From a virus, in IMG/VR virus record IMGVR_UViG_3300031523_000010, positions 1-22,475 of that record: a stretch of DNA of 22,475 bases; one strand, 5' to 3'. This document shows, piece after piece, positions 1 through 22,475 of this stretch. The position numbers and the translations under genes are program-made. How positions within the stretch are numbered: position 1 is the first letter of the stretch; each line of letters begins with the position of its first letter. Under the pieces are notes generated by a model, which was not told where the DNA came from, did no database searches, and saw only the letters and a list, made by a program, of their open reading frames with translations.

Positions 1-1479
1 ATCGACCTCGAAATGTTCATCAAACCATGGCGGCATTGTACCTGAATCTGTAGGGATAGCGATACTAGTAAAACGTCCATATTTTTGTGTGATGTAAAAT
101 ACTTTAATCTTGGATCCAGAACGAATCGGTTCACTATCCAAGTCCTTAAATTTCGTAAGGCATTCATTATAGTTAATCGATGCTGCTACATGTCCAGGTA
201 GTCTCGCTAATTTTCCATCTGGTCCAATCCCACGATTGTGTGCATCTGTATAACTCTCAACATTTTTTACACCTTTGGGTAATCCAATATCGAACGTTGG
301 CATAATGTGGGATACTTGTGCTCTATAATCAATGATAAAATCATCGATAACATCCCATGAATCATTTCCATCCAAAACCATATTTACTACATCTTCCAGG
401 AATTTTTGGATAGGTTTGGGAGTAGTGGTCTTTTTCATCTCAAGACCCATAGCTTTAAGCTTGTCAACTCTATATCCATCCAAATCAACTAATTTCAGAA
501 CATACCGTTTTTTTGTTACAAAAATCCCACGCTTTGCTACTACTTCTCTATCACATGCGATAATCCCATCATATTCGGGTTGAATGCAAAAAGCATCTTT
601 ACAAAATTTATCAAAGGATTTATCAGCAATCTTACCAATCTCATCAGCAATGAGTACAGCTTCGTCGATGACCTGGTCATATGTTGATGCATTGCCCGTT
701 TCACCAGCATGTGTCTTGAAATATATACTGTCGGTATTGTGTACTAACACACCGTTTGCAAAGAATGTGTGAGTGCCTTCAACTGAAATGTCATATACAG
801 GATCCGAATATTCAGTTAATGTAACGGATGTGGCGGTTATAATATTGGATGTGGAAGATAAGAACATCGTATTACCGATTTCAATATCTGTAGGTCTCAC
901 CTCAATCATCCCATGTTTGGTATATTCAATCAGTGAATGATCTTCAGTTACGATAATACTGGTATTGTCACTGAATGACACGGTGTACACAGGTTTACTG
1001 ACCTGATGTCTCATTACATACAGTACTCGTCTGTAACATAGTTCTTTTGAATGTTCATCGTATGTGAGTACTGAGATATCCGTTGGATGGCAGTACTCTT
1101 TTGATTCGATGGTGTTATCGATATTAGTAAATATATCCTCAATTGGAACTTTTCTTCTATCTTCCAATTGAATGATAGAATCTTTTCCTACCGAATCACC
1201 ATATACGATGGACTCAGAGTGCATATCATATTTACCATCCAACACCAATGCCGTTTGAGCACCCATATGTTCCAGGATAGCACGTCCTGTCCCTGTGGTG
1301 CTTTGACTCAACCTGAGATCGAAGAATCTAAACCAAAAGTTACCTAGACAACCATATGCCGCATTCTGTTGGATCTTCTTAACATACTGCAGTCGATCAT
1401 AATAAGCTGCTTCATCTATTAGTCTATCATATTCGACAGCATCTTCATCAGATATTTCTATACCGCCACGGATTTCCAT
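1..1479 (-). CDS. 43B: Family B DNA polymerase, C-terminal part (gp43B), with mini-intein; 3' end outside window
   Basis: Carries the polymerase motifs missing from the upstream gene. Motif B is KKIQQNAAYG (residues 34-43), aligning with KKILLNSLYG of T4 gp43. Motif C YGD-TDS is formed by Y93-G94-D95 and T249-D250-S251, separated by an intein (residues 96-248). After it come the KKRY motif and the stretch KLKAMGLEMKKTTTPKPIQ, close to KLKIMGLETQKSSTPKAVQ of T4 gp43. The frame is open for 493 codons to the window edge; by comparison with T4, a few dozen thumb residues remain outside. The ATG at 1479 overlaps the stop of gp43A by one base (TAATG), so translation is probably coupled. Seen: motifs, overlap, open frame. 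Family knowledge: replicative polymerase working with clamp and helicase. Inference: gp43A and the spliced gp43B associate into one enzyme. Confidence 0.95.
   Translation of the reverse strand, partial: MEIRGGIEISDEDAVEYDRLIDEAAYYDRLQYVKKIQQNAAYGCLGNFWFRFFDLRLSQSTTGTGRAILEHMGAQTALVLDGKYDMHSESIVYGDSVGKDSIIQLEDRRKVPIEDIFTNIDNTIESKEYCHPTDISVLTYDEHSKELCYRRVLYVMRHQVSKPVYTVSFSDNTSIIVTEDHSLIEYTKHGMIEVRPTDIEIGNTMFLSSTSNIITATSVTLTEYSDPVYDISVEGTHTFFANGVLVHNTDSIYFKTHAGETGNASTYDQVIDEAVLIADEIGKIADKSFDKFCKDAFCIQPEYDGIIACDREVVAKRGIFVTKKRYVLKLVDLDGYRVDKLKAMGLEMKKTTTPKPIQKFLEDVVNMVLDGNDSWDVIDDFIIDYRAQVSHIMPTFDIGLPKGVKNVESYTDAHNRGIGPDGKLARLPGHVAASINYNECLTKFKDLDSEPIRSGSKIKVFYITQKYGRFTSIAIPTDSGTMPPWFDEHFEVD
736..1194 (-). 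mobile_element. Mini-intein (153 residues) at polymerase motif C
   Basis: In-frame insertion between YGD and TDS of the polymerase active site. Block A begins SVGKDSIIQLEDRRKVPIED (Ser1 nucleophile). Block B is VYTVSFSDNTSIIVTEDHSL with the TxxH motif T-E-D-H. Blocks F and G are VYDISVEGTHTFFANG followed by VLVHN, with penultimate His and terminal Asn. The +1 extein residue is Thr249. Only about 40 residues lie between blocks B and F, so there is no room for a LAGLIDADG or HNH endonuclease. All residues expected for class 1 protein splicing are present, so splicing is inferred to work. Inteins at this polymerase site are known in archaea and some viruses; the combination with a split gene is the unusual part. 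Confidence 0.95.
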
Positions 1480-3059
1480 TACTTATACTTCTCCAATATT
1501 GCAGCTGCTGATTTCTTAGCACCATTCATTTTCTTCTTGTACACATCTCTATCTTTGAACCATGTGTGGAGCACCGTTGGAAACATTCCAGGAGTTGCCT
1601 GGTCGAAAATTGTACCATACCCAGAAATTGACCATTTGTGTTCAAACAAGATCTCCCTCCACTCTGCTCCTGTGTGGGTTTCAGTTTCACCATATTTGTC
1701 AATATCATCATAGTCCATTGTGACAGATTCGGTCGATGAATTCCTATGTATAATATCCCACGCAGAATGCCTTCCTCTGTCATCGTCAGTTAGAGATCCC
1801 CTCATTTGACCTATCAACTTTTCAGGGCTTATATTATTCATACGGATACTTGATGGATATAGGGATGTGATGTCTATGCTACCAATCCAACTATGCAATC
1901 CTTTTTGTGGATGCAACACCATAGCCCCAAAAGCTCCACCATCAATTTTTAACTTATTGTGATCGGGAACAACAACTCCGAGATTGTAGTGGCAGTGATT
2001 GATCAGAGCGAGGTCTACTAATTTGATCGTTCCAAATATGTTAGCTGGTAACCCACAAGATGAGTGATATAAAACACTAGCTAGTTGTATGTACCCCAGT
2101 TTCTCTTCAAACCCTCTCAATACCTCAGTATCACGAATGTTATATCTAATGAAGAAAACGAAATCATTTTTATATAATTTGGCTAGAGATCCGGTGTATG
2201 TCAGTTTAGGTAAATCAGGAAGAACCTCATTTGAGATTGCTTCCAGACTATATGATGGTCGACCATTCATTTCAAATTTCTTGAACAACTCCATATAGTC
2301 ATAACTAATCCTTCCACCCAAATCCACAGTCGTGCGATCCACTCCAAACACTTGTTGTAACCTATACTTTGGTGCTGCAGCTTCAGGGAATGACATTTTC
2401 TTAAAAAAGACATCACCCAATGATTTCTGAATTCTAGCACAAATGTATGGCGTATCAAAAAAATCTGAATTCCACCCACTTATGCAATCGGAGTCTTCAA
2501 TTTCATCCAAAAAAACCAACAACAACTCAGATTCTGTAGAAAACAATCGAATCTCGGTACCAGTTTCTTCACCCATAGCATACAGCTCATCATTTCCATT
2601 GCTATCCCACCCAGGTGGTGGTACTGCTAATACGAGTTGCTTACCAGACCATTCATGATATAACGCAATTGCATTAATTGGTGCGTAAGGATTTTCTACA
2701 CTGCTGAATCCAATCGTTTCATCATAATCGACTTCGATATCGTATAGAGTTATGTTCAACTTCGGGGGGTCTACATCATAATAATTTTCTGATAATACTT
2801 TGTATTCGGTACCAATGTCAGATTCATATCTGAGTGGTACGGGGTAAGCCTTATAATCATCGAGAGAAGTTTTAAATTCCCAATAACTATCAAATGTGCA
2901 CAGAGATACCTTATTCCCAAATATGCTAGTTATTTCACCGTGTGGGTCGGGAACATAGTATTCGAATATTCCCGGATAGGTTACAGCCTTCCGCCCACTA
3001 GCACTTCGTTCCCACACTATTACCTTATTTGATTTCTGTATTGCATTGATATAACTCAT
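1479..3059 (-). CDS. 43A: Family B DNA polymerase, N-terminal part (gp43A): 3'-5' exonuclease and motif A
   Basis: 526 residues covering the first ~60% of a T4 gp43-type polymerase. Exo I is YDIEVD (D107, E109), Exo II is SGWNSDFFDTPYI (D202) and Exo III is YNIRDTEVL (D310), so proofreading looks intact. Motif A is SIDITSLYPSS (D396), followed by NISPEKLIGQ, close to NISPETIRGQ in T4. The protein stops at AAAILEKYK, inside the helical region before motif B, where T4 gp43 continues without a break. The stop codon shares a base with the start of gp43B. Alone it lacks motifs B and C and should not polymerise. It follows a tail-like gene by 9 nt. No good Shine-Dalgarno is visible, so it may also rely on coupling. 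Confidence 0.95.
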   Translation of the reverse strand: MSYINAIQKSNKVIVWERSASGRKAVTYPGIFEYYVPDPHGEITSIFGNKVSLCTFDSYWEFKTSLDDYKAYPVPLRYESDIGTEYKVLSENYYDVDPPKLNITLYDIEVDYDETIGFSSVENPYAPINAIALYHEWSGKQLVLAVPPPGWDSNGNDELYAMGEETGTEIRLFSTESELLLVFLDEIEDSDCISGWNSDFFDTPYICARIQKSLGDVFFKKMSFPEAAAPKYRLQQVFGVDRTTVDLGGRISYDYMELFKKFEMNGRPSYSLEAISNEVLPDLPKLTYTGSLAKLYKNDFVFFIRYNIRDTEVLRGFEEKLGYIQLASVLYHSSCGLPANIFGTIKLVDLALINHCHYNLGVVVPDHNKLKIDGGAFGAMVLHPQKGLHSWIGSIDITSLYPSSIRMNNISPEKLIGQMRGSLTDDDRGRHSAWDIIHRNSSTESVTMDYDDIDKYGETETHTGAEWREILFEHKWSISGYGTIFDQATPGMFPTVLHTWFKDRDVYKKKMNGAKKSAAAILEKYK

Positions 3060-4768: not shown

Positions 4769-5356
4769 CTATTTGAACCAGGTTGTGTAGTTACCGGGGA
4801 ACATCTTTGGATCATATACATATGGGGTGGTGGATTCCATACATATCCGCATTAGGTGCAATGTACCAACTTGTACATTGCTGACAGAGTTTATGAATCT
4901 TGGATCGCTGGGATATATGATAAGGGTCCCCCGACGTGGGTTGAATCCAAATTTGTGATTAGGAAATTCCAACTTTCCACCATAACATTCAAACTCTGGA
5001 TCAATGGGGGCTGTATCGTTATAATCTGTGAGGAATAATACTCCACAAAAATCACGCCGTTTCGTTTTGATCCACTGTGTCTTCACATATGTCGAACTTT
5101 CACATTGTGGATCAGAACCAACACCAGATGGGATTCGCTCGAAGTTCACTGGCTCCACTAGCTTGTTGGTGGTCTCAAATTGTTGTTCAATCTGTGGGAG
5201 GATGACGTTGATTTTATCGATGATAATATCAGAAAAAGCATCATCCGTCGTGTGGGATGCTTTTTCTGCAATAACCCATCCCGTTTGATCTACTATATTT
5301 TCACATAGTGATGGGGAGATGAAGTTTTCATATATTAAGAAAGGTGACTTATTCAT
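4769..5356 (-). CDS. 2OG-Fe(II) oxygenase-like protein lacking canonical iron ligands
   Basis: 195 residues with the layout of phage prolyl-4-hydroxylase-like proteins. An N-terminal FLIYENFISPSLCENIV helix segment is followed by the core strands DFCGVLFLTDYND (102-114), YGGKLEFP (125-132), FNPRRGTLIIYPSD (138-151) and VGTLHLMRI (163-171). In active members a His-x-Asp precedes the first of these strands and a second His sits in the motif PHxV. Here the first region reads DPQCESSTY and the second FINSV, so no HxD is visible and Asn156 occupies the distal His position. The 2-oxoglutarate-binding Arg could be R170. It may be a non-catalytic binding protein, or my alignment may be off. Its start overlaps the preceding gene as TAATG. 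Confidence 0.5.
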   Translation of the reverse strand: MNKSPFLIYENFISPSLCENIVDQTGWVIAEKASHTTDDAFSDIIIDKINVILPQIEQQFETTNKLVEPVNFERIPSGVGSDPQCESSTYVKTQWIKTKRRDFCGVLFLTDYNDTAPIDPEFECYGGKLEFPNHKFGFNPRRGTLIIYPSDPRFINSVSNVQVGTLHLMRICMESTTPYVYDPKMFPGNYTTWFK

Positions 5357-6201
5357 TAATATTTAATATTTTCATTCATCATTTTTATGGTGGATTGCTT
5401 AATGTGGTGAATTACATCTCGCAATGTGACATTAGATGATAACATATACTCCACAATTTTTGTAATATCTTCATCATTCGATTTGATCTGATTTACTATA
5501 TTGACATTGTCAAATGGTGATTCGTACACAGCCCAATCGATGGATTCTGATACGTTGGTATGGATTGTGAAGTCTCCACGCTGCAATAAATTCTTCCCTA
5601 TCAATAGTGGAGTCATACCAGTTCTGTCATTTAAATTACATTCAACACCCTGTATGGTTTTTCCAGCTATATCCATGGTGAACTTAACAATAGGTCTCGA
5701 TTCATCAGAATCACTATCAGCTTGTTTAACTTGCATGGTACTAGCTACGGCCATACTATACTGGCTGCCATTAATACTAAAACGTACTGTATTGTCGGAC
5801 ATAGATATATTTTCGGCATGCAACGAACACATATCAGCACCAGTATCTATCTTAGCATGAATGGGTCTACCAGCATCAATACTGTGTATCCTAACAGACT
5901 CTTCATAACCTAACTCAGTACCTTCTACAATGACAGGAAGTTCGACACACCGTACAGCAATTGGAACCATTGACAGATTTGGAGTAGCATCCCAAGCGAA
6001 TGCTAAAGCGTTCGATGATGTATCAGACTCGTACACCATCACATACTTTTTTGATTCGGTTATCATTTCTAATATGGTCGTTGGGGTAGACATTTTATAT
6101 TGATACACATCATCACCAACCGTAAACGATAGGGGTAGTTGATCTGACAATGTGCCACGCAAAAAACGTTGTTCCAACTGTGAGACTGTATTGTACTGCA
6201 T
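5356..6201 (-). CDS. Retropepsin-like (RimB / Zn_protease-type) protein
   Basis: 281 residues. The central domain has HAKIDTGADMCSLHA (115-129) with an aspartic-protease-type D119-T-G, then VRFSINGSQY and, near 189-212, NLNDRTGMTPLLIGKNLLQR followed by GDFTI. This order matches the family annotated as putative ATP-dependent zinc protease (KAKIDTGAKTSSLHA ... LLGR). That family is now thought to have a retropepsin fold and often neighbours RimK-type ATP-grasp ligases. No RimK is present here. The first 80 residues and the last 60 (helical) are unrecognised. The gene overlaps its upstream neighbour (nuclease) and downstream neighbour (2OG-like) by one base each. A peptidase role on a phage or host protein is inferred; the substrate is unknown. 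Confidence 0.7.
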   Translation of the reverse strand: MQYNTVSQLEQRFLRGTLSDQLPLSFTVGDDVYQYKMSTPTTILEMITESKKYVMVYESDTSSNALAFAWDATPNLSMVPIAVRCVELPVIVEGTELGYEESVRIHSIDAGRPIHAKIDTGADMCSLHAENISMSDNTVRFSINGSQYSMAVASTMQVKQADSDSDESRPIVKFTMDIAGKTIQGVECNLNDRTGMTPLLIGKNLLQRGDFTIHTNVSESIDWAVYESPFDNVNIVNQIKSNDEDITKIVEYMLSSNVTLRDVIHHIKQSTIKMMNENIKY

Positions 6202-18438: not shown

Positions 18439-18873
18439 TGAGTGTGTAGATTTTAGTATTTCTTTTGCAACCAACCATCTCTTCAATCTGTGAACGTCGT
18501 GAATATCTGCCATCATACCACTATCGACTAAATCTGTTACATTAGCTATGTGTACAACTTCTGTGGTGGATGAGTCTACAATCATACCACTGATGGTATC
18601 ATCCTCATAATTTGATATTTTACAGAACCAATAATCGTGAATCACCGTGCGAAATGGTGACGTATAATCTGGCATAGAGCAATCAATCATGTAATCCATT
18701 ATACCGATCGTTATGTTCAATTGGGTTGAAAAATCCAGTATGTCAAAATCGGGATATAAACCCTTTACAGCCTGGTATGGTGTCACCTCGGGTGTGAATA
18801 TTGGACCAGGGTTATCCCCATACTTCTCAATTATGTCACCAGCTAGTTGGACTGTCAAATTGTGTTTGTACAT
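18418..18873 (-). CDS. Unknown protein (151 aa), probable early gene
   Basis: No family recognised. The sequence is acidic and mixed, with FTPEVTPYQAVKGLYPDFDI, IHDYWFCKISNYEDD and a helical end DVHRLKRWLVAKEILKSTHS. No membrane segment or signal peptide. Purine-rich GAGACTGAGAG lies directly before the ATG, overlapping the end of the 92-aa gene. It is the second gene behind the sigma70 promoter at 19185-19214, so probably expressed early. Its last codons form one arm of the hairpin with nrdB. Confidence 0.7.
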   Translation of the reverse strand: MYKHNLTVQLAGDIIEKYGDNPGPIFTPEVTPYQAVKGLYPDFDILDFSTQLNITIGIMDYMIDCSMPDYTSPFRTVIHDYWFCKISNYEDDTISGMIVDSSTTEVVHIANVTDLVDSGMMADIHDVHRLKRWLVAKEILKSTHSLLSIQA

Positions 18874-19184: not shown

Positions 19185-19214
19185 ATTATACCCTTATTCG
19201 GCGAGTATTGTCAA
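19185..19214 (-). promoter_or_regulatory. Strong sigma70 (early) promoter
   Basis: The minus strand has consensus TTGACA (19209-19214), an 18-bp spacer and consensus TATAAT (19185-19190). It begins directly after the stop of the 80-aa gene and is followed by the 92-aa gene. Start expected near 19178. Confidence 0.85.
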
Positions 19215-19457
19215 CTAAAACATTGCCAATATCTTATCCATATTGGCAATGACTATGCCACTACAGAGTACAACTAGAGTAGCGATGTCAAACATCATGG
19301 ACTTGTTTGTAGCTGAACGGTGCTCTTCCATTAAGTTCTCCACCAGCTGACTATTCTCTTCCAGGGATACATGAAATGAATCCCGGACATTAATTAACTC
19401 ATTCGTAAAAGTTTCAACATGATCTAACTGTACTGCATCATTACCTAAGTGTTTCAT
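19215..19457 (-). CDS. Small membrane protein with coiled-coil region
   Basis: 80 residues. The first 50 are helical and charged (LDHVETFTNELINVRDSFHV, then EENSQLVENLMEEH). Residues ~55-72 form one hydrophobic segment (MFDIATLVVLCSGIVIAN), followed by a short MDKILAMF tail. There is no signal peptide, so it is probably anchored by the C-terminal helix. No family recognised. Its ATG overlaps the end of the topoisomerase gene by 4 nt (ATGA), so it is translated with it. It could be a holin-like or membrane-tether protein, but one such segment is not enough to say. Confidence 0.7.
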   Translation of the reverse strand: MKHLGNDAVQLDHVETFTNELINVRDSFHVSLEENSQLVENLMEEHRSATNKSMMFDIATLVVLCSGIVIANMDKILAMF

Positions 19458-20782
19458 TTTACTGCTCCTGTGAATTGTTTTTTGATGTCTTTAAGTTCAT
19501 TAATGTAAATCGCCCGTCGAATATCTTCAGACCCCAATATGGTTACATATTCGGATAATATTTCCCGATTGGTTGTTAAGCTCTTTTCAACCTTTGCACG
19601 TTCATCTAGTGTGTATCTGTAGGTTGGTAGTCCTGATATATATGATACATTCACGATGCCAATATCTTGCAACCAGGAATCAAAGTCCTTTTTAGTTTGC
19701 TTCTTAGTAGCAACCAACCCAGCTTGTTGATCTATCGCCGTTATGATATCAACTTCTTTCTGGATGTCATCTTCAATAATGGATTTAAGTCGCTCATATC
19801 TAGCCACATACCAACCCAACCTCCACTCTGTGAATGTTGTAATGATCTCAACGTCATTGGTTCCCATCACAGTTTTGTGGGTGAAGTCCAATACATTTAA
19901 GTTTTCTGATACATTGACGACCAATCCCAATTTGGTGAGCAGCTGATCGTCACTAAGTTTTCCAGCTTCCCCCCTTTTAAACTGAACATCGATTGAAATT
20001 GAGTCTCTACTGCGGTCTTCATAATCTGAGATAGCATCAACATCCAATAATTTATTCAGTTTGCTGTTATCATTTTGTAGGATTTTTGCATGCGAGGTAC
20101 CAAACGGAATTCGAGTTATTGTTACATTACTTGCATTCTTTCTAACAACTTCACCCTTGAACACCCACTTAGAATCTCGGTGAGTAGCTACATCATTGGT
20201 GGGTAAGAAAGTGGGAGTTGTGGGCGTTACCTTTTTCCCTTTCAAATAGTCCAGCTGTCGATCAACTACATCCTGCAACTTCCTTGGAGCTATCGTTGTC
20301 GAAAAACCAACTGCAATTCCATCTGCGGGGTTGAGTAATACAATTGGGACGATTGGGAGAAAGTGCACAGGTTCCATCAATGTTGAATCATAGTTCTCCA
20401 TCATTGGCACAAGTTCAATGTCTTTAAATAAAATCTGTTTAGCAAATTCAGATACTTCCACACTCGTATATCTTGACGCAGCATATGCTGTATTATTAAC
20501 ACAAGTGCCAAAAGCTCCATATCCTTTAAGTAATGGATAATTGTTACCATATGGAGCAGCTAGTGTATTGATCGTTCCTTCTGGTGGACTGTGGGGGTGG
20601 AGTGGTAGAGTTGCACCAGCTAGAGATGCAGATTTGTGCTTCTTTCCATCCCTAGCAGTCCACAATACACGTCTAGCAGCTGGCTTAATTCCATCAGTTA
20701 TTGCCGGAATTGCTCTATTGGTAATAACATATAGAGCGAACTCTTTTCGTAATGATTCAATATAGTCAGACGATTTCATCAT
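19454..20782 (-). CDS. 52: DNA topoisomerase II, medium subunit (gp52)
   Basis: 442 residues, the same size as T4 gp52 (441). ITNRAIPAITDGIKPAARRV (~20-39) is the GyrA/ParC breakage-reunion start. AASRYTSVEV holds the catalytic R104-Y105 that attacks DNA. PLLKGYGAFGT and the LPIVPIVLLNPADGIAVGFS stretch are typical. The C-terminal part is helical with no GyrA-type beta-pinwheel, as in T4. Together with the gp39-like subunit it makes the phage topoisomerase that relaxes DNA and supports replication start. Two adjacent Met codons start the gene; the stop overlaps the small membrane protein gene. Confidence 0.95.
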   Translation of the reverse strand: MMKSSDYIESLRKEFALYVITNRAIPAITDGIKPAARRVLWTARDGKKHKSASLAGATLPLHPHSPPEGTINTLAAPYGNNYPLLKGYGAFGTCVNNTAYAASRYTSVEVSEFAKQILFKDIELVPMMENYDSTLMEPVHFLPIVPIVLLNPADGIAVGFSTTIAPRKLQDVVDRQLDYLKGKKVTPTTPTFLPTNDVATHRDSKWVFKGEVVRKNASNVTITRIPFGTSHAKILQNDNSKLNKLLDVDAISDYEDRSRDSISIDVQFKRGEAGKLSDDQLLTKLGLVVNVSENLNVLDFTHKTVMGTNDVEIITTFTEWRLGWYVARYERLKSIIEDDIQKEVDIITAIDQQAGLVATKKQTKKDFDSWLQDIGIVNVSYISGLPTYRYTLDERAKVEKSLTTNREILSEYVTILGSEDIRRAIYINELKDIKKQFTGAVK

Positions 20783-20793
20783 TCTACATACTC

Positions 20794-21309
20794 TCAGTCA
20801 GTTGGATCTAAAGGTTCTACATATTCAATATCAAAAACGATATCACCATCTACCCACTCTAATGATTTCACATCGAAGTCATCTGGCACATCATACGATA
20901 TAGTCATGTGAGCCTTGTAATTGGGATAATCTGTTGTAGCTTCAGTGGTACTCATTATTTCTTTATTGCGATTATTGGCCCAATCACACTTCAATATAGC
21001 AACCAACACATTTTTTGAATCTTCAGTGTTGTGTGAATTCCACATTTCGAACTTAGCAATCGTTGCTGGTGCCCCAGGTACAATCTTCTTATCATCAATA
21101 TCGTGAAAAGTCGGTAGATGCACTCCACTATACACGAGAGTGCAATGTAGGTCCTTATTCTTTGATGGAATTTTATTGGTTTTCATGAATTTGGTGATGC
21201 GCTTAACGGACTCCGTCGATGGACGTATCGCAATGAACGTACCACCTTTGGATTCTGTTTTTTCTACCTCAGGATCTTCTTCGGTTTTATTAATCTCATT
21301 CAATTTCAT
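20794..21309 (-). CDS. 2H phosphoesterase, Acb1-like (probable anti-CBASS)
   Basis: 171 residues with the two H-x-T motifs of 2H phosphoesterases: LHCTLVYSG (H55, T57) and KAHMTISYD (H134, T136). The C-terminal DIEYVEPLD resembles the end of T4 gp57B (Acb1). Acb1 cuts the cyclic oligonucleotide signals of bacterial CBASS defence. Other family members are cyclic phosphodiesterases and 2'-5' RNA ligase-like enzymes, so the specific call is less certain than the fold. The N-terminus MKLNEINKTEEDPEVEKTES is a polar extension before the domain starts at GGTFIAIRPS. It lies between the two topoisomerase genes, with gaps of 11 nt on both sides, so it is expressed with them. Confidence 0.8.
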   Translation of the reverse strand: MKLNEINKTEEDPEVEKTESKGGTFIAIRPSTESVKRITKFMKTNKIPSKNKDLHCTLVYSGVHLPTFHDIDDKKIVPGAPATIAKFEMWNSHNTEDSKNVLVAILKCDWANNRNKEIMSTTEATTDYPNYKAHMTISYDVPDDFDVKSLEWVDGDIVFDIEYVEPLDPTD

Positions 21310-21320
21310 ATTATATTATC

Positions 21321-22475
21321 TCAGTTTGTTAACCATTCTTTTCGTGCTTCAATATCATCCCCAAATAACAATTTCAGAGTGGACCCTATCAATCCATCAT
21401 CGATGAAGGGGATTAAACATTCGCTATTTTCTAATACCATTTGGAAATCTAATTTGGACATACTTCCCAAACCTTTCATGTATTCAGCAGTATATGATGT
21501 GTATTTATGTTTACTTTTTTCATATTCTGCTCTGTTCACAAAATGTATTCGTTTACTACCTTTACTTAGCACAACATTCGGAGCTACTAGCCTATATATG
21601 ATTGGTGTTTTTAATGGATCAAACAACTCTGGCCAGAATTGGAAGAATAGATTGATCAACAGATCGCAGATATCAGCTCCATCTGGATCAGAATCTGTCA
21701 TTATTATGATCTTGCCGAATCTCAACTCATGTCTGATTGCTTTCTTACCTGGGATCAACCCGATGCTCAATAATAAGTTGGTGATCTTTCCCATCTTTAG
21801 TAGTTCAGCTGGCCCAATACCGTATACGTTGTTAATCTTTCCAGTCAATGGAAACGATCCTACTCGTTCCGGATTACGAACTTCAATTATTCCAGATGAT
21901 GCCGATAATCCCTCTGTGATAATTATACTGCAATCGCCCCGATGCTTACTTGTAGCATCAGTCAACCCAGGAACTTTCTTTTTGAGATTCTTTGACAAAC
22001 TCTTAATAGCTTCATCATTTGCCTTAGAGTGGTGGCGTGCAGCAGCTCTAGTCAATACAACATCTAACCACTCGGTCTTTTGTTTGGAAAATTGCTTCCA
22101 TTGTGACGTCAACACATCTTGTATATTTTTTCGTAGATTTGGTCCAGTCAATCTGTTTTTACTTTGGGCGTCGTATTCTGGGTTGGCTAGTTTAAGTACA
22201 CCAAATACAATCAGGTTCTGGCGAACATCATTCTTAGTCAATACACATTTCTGTTTTTTAGCTTGACTCTTCAGTGAGTCAATCACGATGTCACTAAACG
22301 CATTTATGAATTGAGTGTTACACAGCCCACCATCAAACAACAACGAACTATTAACCCAGGTGAACATTAACTCATCCACTCCCTTATGCAAATCAAATGC
22401 TACATAGAAATCCATGTTATCTGAACTGAATTTGAAAAAATCGGTGGATACTTTCGATATTACATCACTGAACCC
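21321..22475 (-). CDS. 39: DNA topoisomerase II, large subunit (gp39/gp60 type), 5' end outside window
   Basis: The open frame runs to the right edge (384 residues in window, beginning GFSDVISKVST), so the in-frame ATG at 22415 is internal. It matches the GyrB transducer and TOPRIM regions: LLFDGGLCNTQF, LTGPNLRKNI, the TOPRIM Glu in ITEGLSASSG (E188 counted from the edge), FPLTGKINNV, and TDSDPDGADI (D261, D263, D265) for the metal site. The ATPase domain would lie beyond the edge. Both TOPRIM parts are in one frame, so this phage has the subunit unsplit, unlike T4, where gp39 and gp60 are separate. First gene seen of the unit that continues to 19215. Confidence 0.93.
   Translation of the reverse strand, partial: GFSDVISKVSTDFFKFSSDNMDFYVAFDLHKGVDELMFTWVNSSLLFDGGLCNTQFINAFSDIVIDSLKSQAKKQKCVLTKNDVRQNLIVFGVLKLANPEYDAQSKNRLTGPNLRKNIQDVLTSQWKQFSKQKTEWLDVVLTRAAARHHSKANDEAIKSLSKNLKKKVPGLTDATSKHRGDCSIIITEGLSASSGIIEVRNPERVGSFPLTGKINNVYGIGPAELLKMGKITNLLLSIGLIPGKKAIRHELRFGKIIIMTDSDPDGADICDLLINLFFQFWPELFDPLKTPIIYRLVAPNVVLSKGSKRIHFVNRAEYEKSKHKYTSYTAEYMKGLGSMSKLDFQMVLENSECLIPFIDDGLIGSTLKLLFGDDIEARKEWLTN

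Follow-up and report, generated by a model that had tools for sequence, protein, structure and literature searches.

The closest described counterparts of the gene treated here are the anti-CBASS enzymes Acb1 (CBASS, cyclic oligonucleotide-based antiphage signaling system) of phage T4, where Acb1 is the product of gene 57B, and of Erwinia phage FBB1, represented in the PDB by 7t26 and 7t27. According to excerpts of the published account (PMC9117128), the catalytic residues of Acb1 are H44, T46, H113, and T115, the bases of the ligand stack on Y12, W74, F107, and W147, E141 contacts adenine, and a lid formed by residues 145–152 closes over the ligand in a pocket that takes only di- and trinucleotides; the 57B sequence in NC_000866 has precisely the residue letters described. 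A phosphodiesterase of Burkholderia phage BCSR5 (9q2g and 9q2y) also bears the PDB molecule name anti-CBASS protein Acb1; no paper on this enzyme was found under the term BCSR5 in the open-licence literature, as judged by title. The gene in question, here called acb1, is located in a window of 22475 bases that comprises the entire IMG/VR virus record IMGVR_UViG_3300031523_000010, a fragment of an uncultivated phage which, in our reading of its gene content, is T4-like. Its product is a new, and expected, member of the known Acb1 family, whose enzymes degrade the molecules with which bacterial CBASS raises the alarm, and a divergent and probably active one.

A preliminary description of this DNA had proposed an Acb1-like open reading frame (ORF) with two HxT motifs and an EPLD-type ending between topoisomerase genes, and the proposal is borne out: the frame is present on the minus strand (Table 1), the catalytic histidines of its two motifs are 79 residues apart (69 between H44 and H113 of T4 Acb1), the C-terminus reads ...EYVEPLDPTD, and a gp39-like gene lies upstream and a gp52-like gene downstream, an arrangement with one close parallel, L026 (L numbers designate loci, G numbers records). 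The protein matches the Pfam family Acb1 (PF23474) far beyond chance, with an E-value of 1.2e-23 and a score of 83.9 bits (the cut-off being 27) over positions 2–138 of the 144 of the profile, and the solved Acb1 7t26 is matched by sequence at E 2.4e-6 (phmmer). When the PDB was searched with a 69-row profile, 7t26 was found at E 1.2e-46 and the BCSR5 entry named Acb1 at E 1.8e-17. The alignment behind this profile consists of the window protein and 68 of 94 distinct proteins; omitted were L001 (the window itself), nine phage-record proteins (L002–L010), 12 long fusions, the two pieces of L131, L016, and L087. An alignment-based search of viral contigs yielded 222 relatives, and the 80 best of them were retained; a single-protein search of the same kind returned 19 pattern-matching stretches, none of them confirmed. 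A tblastn search of phage genomes with the E-value limit set to 10, the weakest rows being chance, gave matches in 1465 phage records, all below 60% identity, the strongest E-values among the matches listed being 9e-13 to 2e-11.

The residues that define Acb1 are retained. The HxT/HxT tetrad is complete in 65 of the 69 rows, the window included, and the other four have a serine for one threonine; the base-stacking aromatic positions 12, 74, and 107 are occupied by F25, W90, and Y128, and the glutamate corresponding to E141 is kept as well. (A 10-row alignment had placed H93 at the position of W74; this was dropped, the 69-row alignment putting W90 there.) What distinguishes the protein from T4 and FBB1 Acb1 is a longer N-terminus, a longer loop after position 74, phenylalanine for Y12, and a C-terminal tail devoid of the lid tryptophan W147. 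In the rows of the alignment, the stretch after the column of L167 contains tryptophan in 49, only phenylalanine or tyrosine in 12, and no aromatic residue in 8, which include the window, its sister L026, and L126; W147 thus varies within the family and was not treated as a family-defining trait. With this tryptophan missing, catalysis could be weaker or the choice of substrate different. An Acb1-family enzyme with a shifted target, which with its shortened lid would act chiefly on something other than the usual di- and trinucleotide signals of CBASS (rings of larger size, or cyclic nucleotides that serve as decoys or inhibitors), is conceivable and would fit the lack of any aromatic residue beyond the EPLD segment in the window, L026, and six other rows, as well as the role of the lid in an enzyme limited to di- and trinucleotides (excerpts of PMC9117128). 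It is nonetheless improbable, as the remaining pocket residues are kept, loss of the lid residue could equally just slow the enzyme, and no neighbouring gene points to another target.

The predicted fold agrees with the assignment to Acb1. An AlphaFold2 model built on the 69-row alignment has a mean predicted local distance difference test score (pLDDT) of 87.5 and a predicted TM-score (pTM) of 0.79. Foldseek against the PDB placed 7t27 (E 5.4e-9) and 7t26 (E 2.2e-8) first, followed by chains of the BCSR5 phosphodiesterase, the next E-value being 0.057. In VIA-align 2, 7t26 reached a Z of 17.0 (root-mean-square deviation 1.9 over 135 residues) and 7t27 one of 16.8; the BCSR5 enzyme, which has the same fold at 17–18% identity to the window protein, scored 15.8 and 15.5, human C16orf57 (Usb1) 11.2, and LigT 11.0; apart from the entries for FBB1 and BCSR5, no listed enzyme exceeded 11.2. 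The structural comparison with Acb1 that the preliminary description had called for thus comes out in favour of its family assignment, as do profile and residues, and the RNA-ligase and tRNA-processing 2H enzymes are the more distant matches. That the protein might be an RNA-acting 2H phosphoesterase of LigT type, which mends or trims RNA at 2′-5′ or 2′,3′-cyclic ends as in tRNA repair, is suggested by PHROG 755 (matched at E 2e-30), whose annotation “RNA ligase” would then be literally correct and recurs for homologues in many listed phage records, and by the general 2H fold common to LigT, Usb1, and plant cyclic phosphodiesterase (Z of about 11, well under the score of the Acb1 structure), but is highly improbable: the Pfam profile 2_5_RNA_ligase2 (LigT/2′-5′ RNA ligase, PF13563) gives 12.2 bits where the cut-off is 27 (E 0.19), the margin of FBB1 Acb1 over the best-scoring enzyme that does not bear this name is 5.8 Z units, the Acb1 pocket is retained with the exception of the lid, and T4 57B, itself an “RNA ligase” in its own record (NP_049750.1), is the Acb1 tested under the same accession (excerpts of PMC9117128).

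The gene very probably encodes a cyclic-oligonucleotide phosphodiesterase of the Acb1 family, which, by homology with T4 and FBB1 Acb1, would keep CBASS effectors off in a host presumed to carry such a system. An adenine-containing cyclic di- or trinucleotide (3′3′-cyclic GMP-AMP, cUA, cAAA, and similar) would be bound with its bases stacked on F25, W90, and Y128 and one adenine read via E165; the bound cyclic nucleotide would be strained, and the two HxT motifs would promote a metal-free acid-base attack of the 2′-OH on the 3′-5′ bond. The ring would be opened 3′ of adenosine and the CBASS effectors would not be switched on; acb1 being probably co-transcribed with gp39 and gp52, the enzyme would be present during phage DNA copying. 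Several observations weigh against this proposal. Identity to characterised enzymes is about 25% (24–25% to T4 Acb1, 26% to FBB1 Acb1), F25 replaces Y12 with a residue found there in 6 of the 69 rows, and the lid tryptophan is absent. The query-normalised TM-score is slightly higher for the BCSR5 phosphodiesterase (0.67–0.68) than for FBB1 Acb1 (0.60–0.61), whereas E-value, Z, and identity favour FBB1 Acb1. In the Acb1 tree the window row sits on a long branch with no firm place, and the early-expression part of the proposal is drawn solely from gene packing.

Beyond the window, acb1 is close to constant among the replication genes of a clade of T4-like phages that is seen here only in metagenome contigs. 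Alignment-based searching with gp52 found 46 loci of 44–57% identity, including the four that a single-protein gp52 search had found; together with two loci from a single-protein gp39 search, they define 48 records, five of them longer than 200 kb, which were searched whole. gp39 was found in 46 and acb1 in 28 of these, and wherever acb1 occurs, it is on the same strand as gp39 (28/28). In 27 it is located upstream of gp39, 2.2–9.4 kb before the matched gp39 part; in the remaining one, G007 (229507 bases, containing both L026 and L097), it is flanked by gp39 and gp52. The records that lack acb1 are mostly truncated: where at least 10 kb precede the matched gp39 part, 24 of 25 records carry acb1 (G007 included; the exception is G021), and where at least 4 kb do, 28 of 32. 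These counts are not independent, since there are near-copies among the records (for example L094/L136, L124/L125, and L128/L133), and in G041 acb1 is in two pieces with an internal stop. The Acb1 proteins of the clade (e.g., L129, L123, and L094) are 26–36% identical to the window protein (20 clade rows), and their genes are on one strand and in one cluster with gp39 and gp52. When genes of L129 and L126 were used as queries against the window and 31 selected loci, the gene order usually found was td–frd–acb1–clpP–primase–gp39–metallophosphoesterase–gp52, although many loci are cut and not every gene is found in every locus; phoH precedes td in two loci (L126 and L139), and acb1 precedes frd in L119 and L131. 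Names of these genes were taken from Pfam (thymidylate synthase, dihydrofolate reductase, ClpP, DNA gyrase B, metallophosphoesterase, and PhoH) and from PHROGs (DNA primase, PHROG 47; phosphoesterase, PHROG 547).

Other phages with Acb1 have different surroundings. T4 57B is located between ipI and 57A, and in eight of nine annotated records of cultured phages (T4, AsFcp_2, 1.081.O, S13, RB49, MD-2021a, K491, and avDM3) acb1 directly follows a small ORF at the position of 57A, which itself follows that of gene 1 (deoxynucleoside monophosphate kinase); for 1.081.O and MD-2021a, where the genes are not so named, both positions were judged by order. In the ninth, Vibrio phage Va1, acb1 lies about 0.9 kb before a primase-helicase gene. 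No topoisomerase is named within about 4 kb on either side of acb1 in these nine records, nor do gp39 and gp52 of the window match in these loci at E 1e-4, and among the papers listed in searches of the open-licence literature, no title or abstract start reports acb1 beside topoisomerase genes. Forty other Acb1-bearing records contain a gp39 match in only five cases, all at 34% identity or less, so that most Acb1 phages are outside the clade; in two viral contigs outside it, L044 and L045, a gp52-like gene (27 and 41% identity) on the strand of acb1 follows it downstream at distances of 5.1 and 7.7 kb. The best gp52 match listed among phage records is 34.5% (Sinorhizobium phage Phosso, 469 kb), NrdA of the window is about 55% identical to cyanophage NrdA, and a scan of genome contigs for a host with the gp52 alignment gave 83 pattern-matching stretches and no relative. 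A second link of acb1 to nucleotide metabolism is seen in L040, L048, L066, L072, and L081, where genes for ribonucleotide reductase lie on its strand at a distance of no more than about 1 kb. Acb1-like domains also occur at or near the C-terminal end of proteins of 385–719 amino acids in L049, L060, L068, L069, L070, L078, L079, and L082–L086; as a match to the 69-row profile is likewise present in the portal protein of Pam3 (8hds, residues 482–616), these are probably portal fusions.

While acb1 of the clade is usually upstream of gp39 and near frd and clpP, it is found between gp39 and gp52 in only three of the 53 loci that hold both genes: L001 (the window), L026, and L097, the last two belonging to one record. 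The slot is otherwise occupied by a calcineurin-like metallophosphoesterase (PHROG 547; L129:7516–8217) in 25 of the 27 relatives' records holding both genes, the exceptions being G007 and G001; among whole records, the L129 enzyme has a match in 10 of 13, with none in the window, G007, and G001. In G007 frd is directly followed by clpP, and acb1 comes after gp39 and a homing-endonuclease-like gene. The window and L026 are sisters in the trees of gp52 (57% identity) and nrdB, with support of 99 and 100 in the SH-like approximate likelihood ratio test, and L026 is nearest to the window by path in the gp39 tree, where no starred set holds the window (identity of gp39 is 62% to L026 and 64% to L023 and L061). 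Because the two are sisters, frd and clpP are adjacent in G007, and the slot has no metallophosphoesterase, a single move of acb1 from the frd/clpP site to the gp39/gp52 site in their common line is likely. The Acb1 tree itself does not group the window with L026, although holding them together is not rejected (p of 0.187 in the approximately unbiased test), and the arrangement could also stem from two separate moves or from a foreign copy that took the place of the original. Homing-endonuclease-like ORFs, read from translations, are located around gp39, acb1, and nrdB in L026 (3197–5005, 6848–7975, 10593–12281, and 13382–14524), the second being a PHROG 681 endonuclease (E 2e-63); such endonucleases may have helped genes move. 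A lead concerns the usual occupant of the slot: a mycobacteriophage metallophosphoesterase with a counter-defence role is described in excerpts of PMC12287305, and a link of the gp39/gp52-slot enzyme to anti-defence may be worth following.

As regards transcription, the gaps of 11 bases on either side of acb1 suggest that gp39, acb1, and gp52 form one transcript. The frame of the gp39-like gene is still open beyond 22415 and runs to the end of the contig, which cuts the gene, and so the promoter of the unit lies beyond the record. T4 expresses its genes for thymidylate synthase, dihydrofolate reductase, primase, topoisomerase, and ribonucleotide reductase in the early or middle phase of infection, and acb1 may likewise be expressed early; the statement in the preliminary description that its position ensures early expression is an inference. 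A terminator-like hairpin of 12 pairs may close the run (Table 1); in the scanned region there are five such sites against a shuffle mean of 2.8 (standard deviation 1.9), an excess that is not decisive. The T4-type late promoter TATAAATA occurs twice in the window against 1.85 expected by chance, neither copy within the gp39-acb1-gp52 run, and promoter-like sites are not above those of shuffled sequences (17 against 20.5 in the window, 41 against 51.3 in L097, and 28 against 31.3 in L129). Directly after the hairpin, at 19185–19214 on the minus strand, there is a perfect sigma-70 consensus (TTGACA, 18 bases, TATAAT; 12/12), and an 11/12 match is present at 18858–18830.

Table 1. Coordinates of acb1, its motifs and its neighbours in the window
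Feature	Position	Strand	Remarks
acb1, 2H phosphoesterase of the Acb1 (anti-CBASS) family	20794..21309	-	171 amino acids, ATG start
First catalytic motif, H55-C-T57 (T4 H44, T46)	21139..21147	-	H in 69/69, T in 68/69 rows
Second catalytic motif, H134-M-T136 (T4 H113, T115)	20902..20910	-	H in 69/69, T in 66/69 rows
W90, pocket aromatic (T4 W74)	21040..21042	-	column W 37, F 30, M 1, L 1 (69 rows)
E165 (adenine-contacting E141 of T4 Acb1)	20815..20817	-	E in 55/69 rows
Short C-terminal tail DIEYVEPLDPTD, lacking a counterpart of lid tryptophan W147 (T4 Acb1)	20797..20832	-	alignment
gp39-like topoisomerase II large subunit, 3′ part	21321..22475	-	DNA_gyraseB and Toprim domains
gp52-like topoisomerase II medium subunit, GyrA/ParC-type	19454..20782	-	PF00521, E 9.8e-64
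Small ORF, last gene of the run	19215..19457	-	80 amino acids, 4-base overlap with gp52 end
Terminator-like hairpin where the gp39-acb1-gp52 run ends; 12 pairs followed by TTTTAG	19221..19251	-	sequence scan

The small ORF that ends the run has no PHROG match. Elsewhere in the window, a family B DNA polymerase (gp43-like) is encoded in two ORFs on the minus strand (1–1479 and 1479–3059), the second of which contains a mini-intein in the YGD|TDS motif (Intein_splicing, PF14890, E 6.1e-15) with no endonuclease domain reported in it. A retropepsin-like putative zinc protease domain (PF05618, E 1.1e-10) is found at 5356–6201 (minus strand) in a run of phage genes. Very long NrdA ORFs occur in L115 (12809–18613), L091, L117, L124, and L130; the L115 protein (1934 amino acids) has intein-splicing and homing-endonuclease domains, the other four having been seen as long ORFs.

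It is possible, though on balance we hold it to be rather doubtful, that this clade as a whole has made the destruction of cyclic-nucleotide alarm signals part of its core DNA-copying cluster, and that in the lineage of the window acb1 moved into the gp39/gp52 slot and lost the lid residue, maybe with a changed substrate range. Together, the window and the 28 acb1-bearing records (some of them near-copies) offer a collection of diverged Acb1 sequences that lends itself to testing and includes members lacking the lid residue. Anti-defence genes are usually regarded as accessory and patchy in distribution; here, one of them is nearly constant in a clade and linked to the replication genes, an indication that these phages are under constant threat from cyclic-nucleotide defences.
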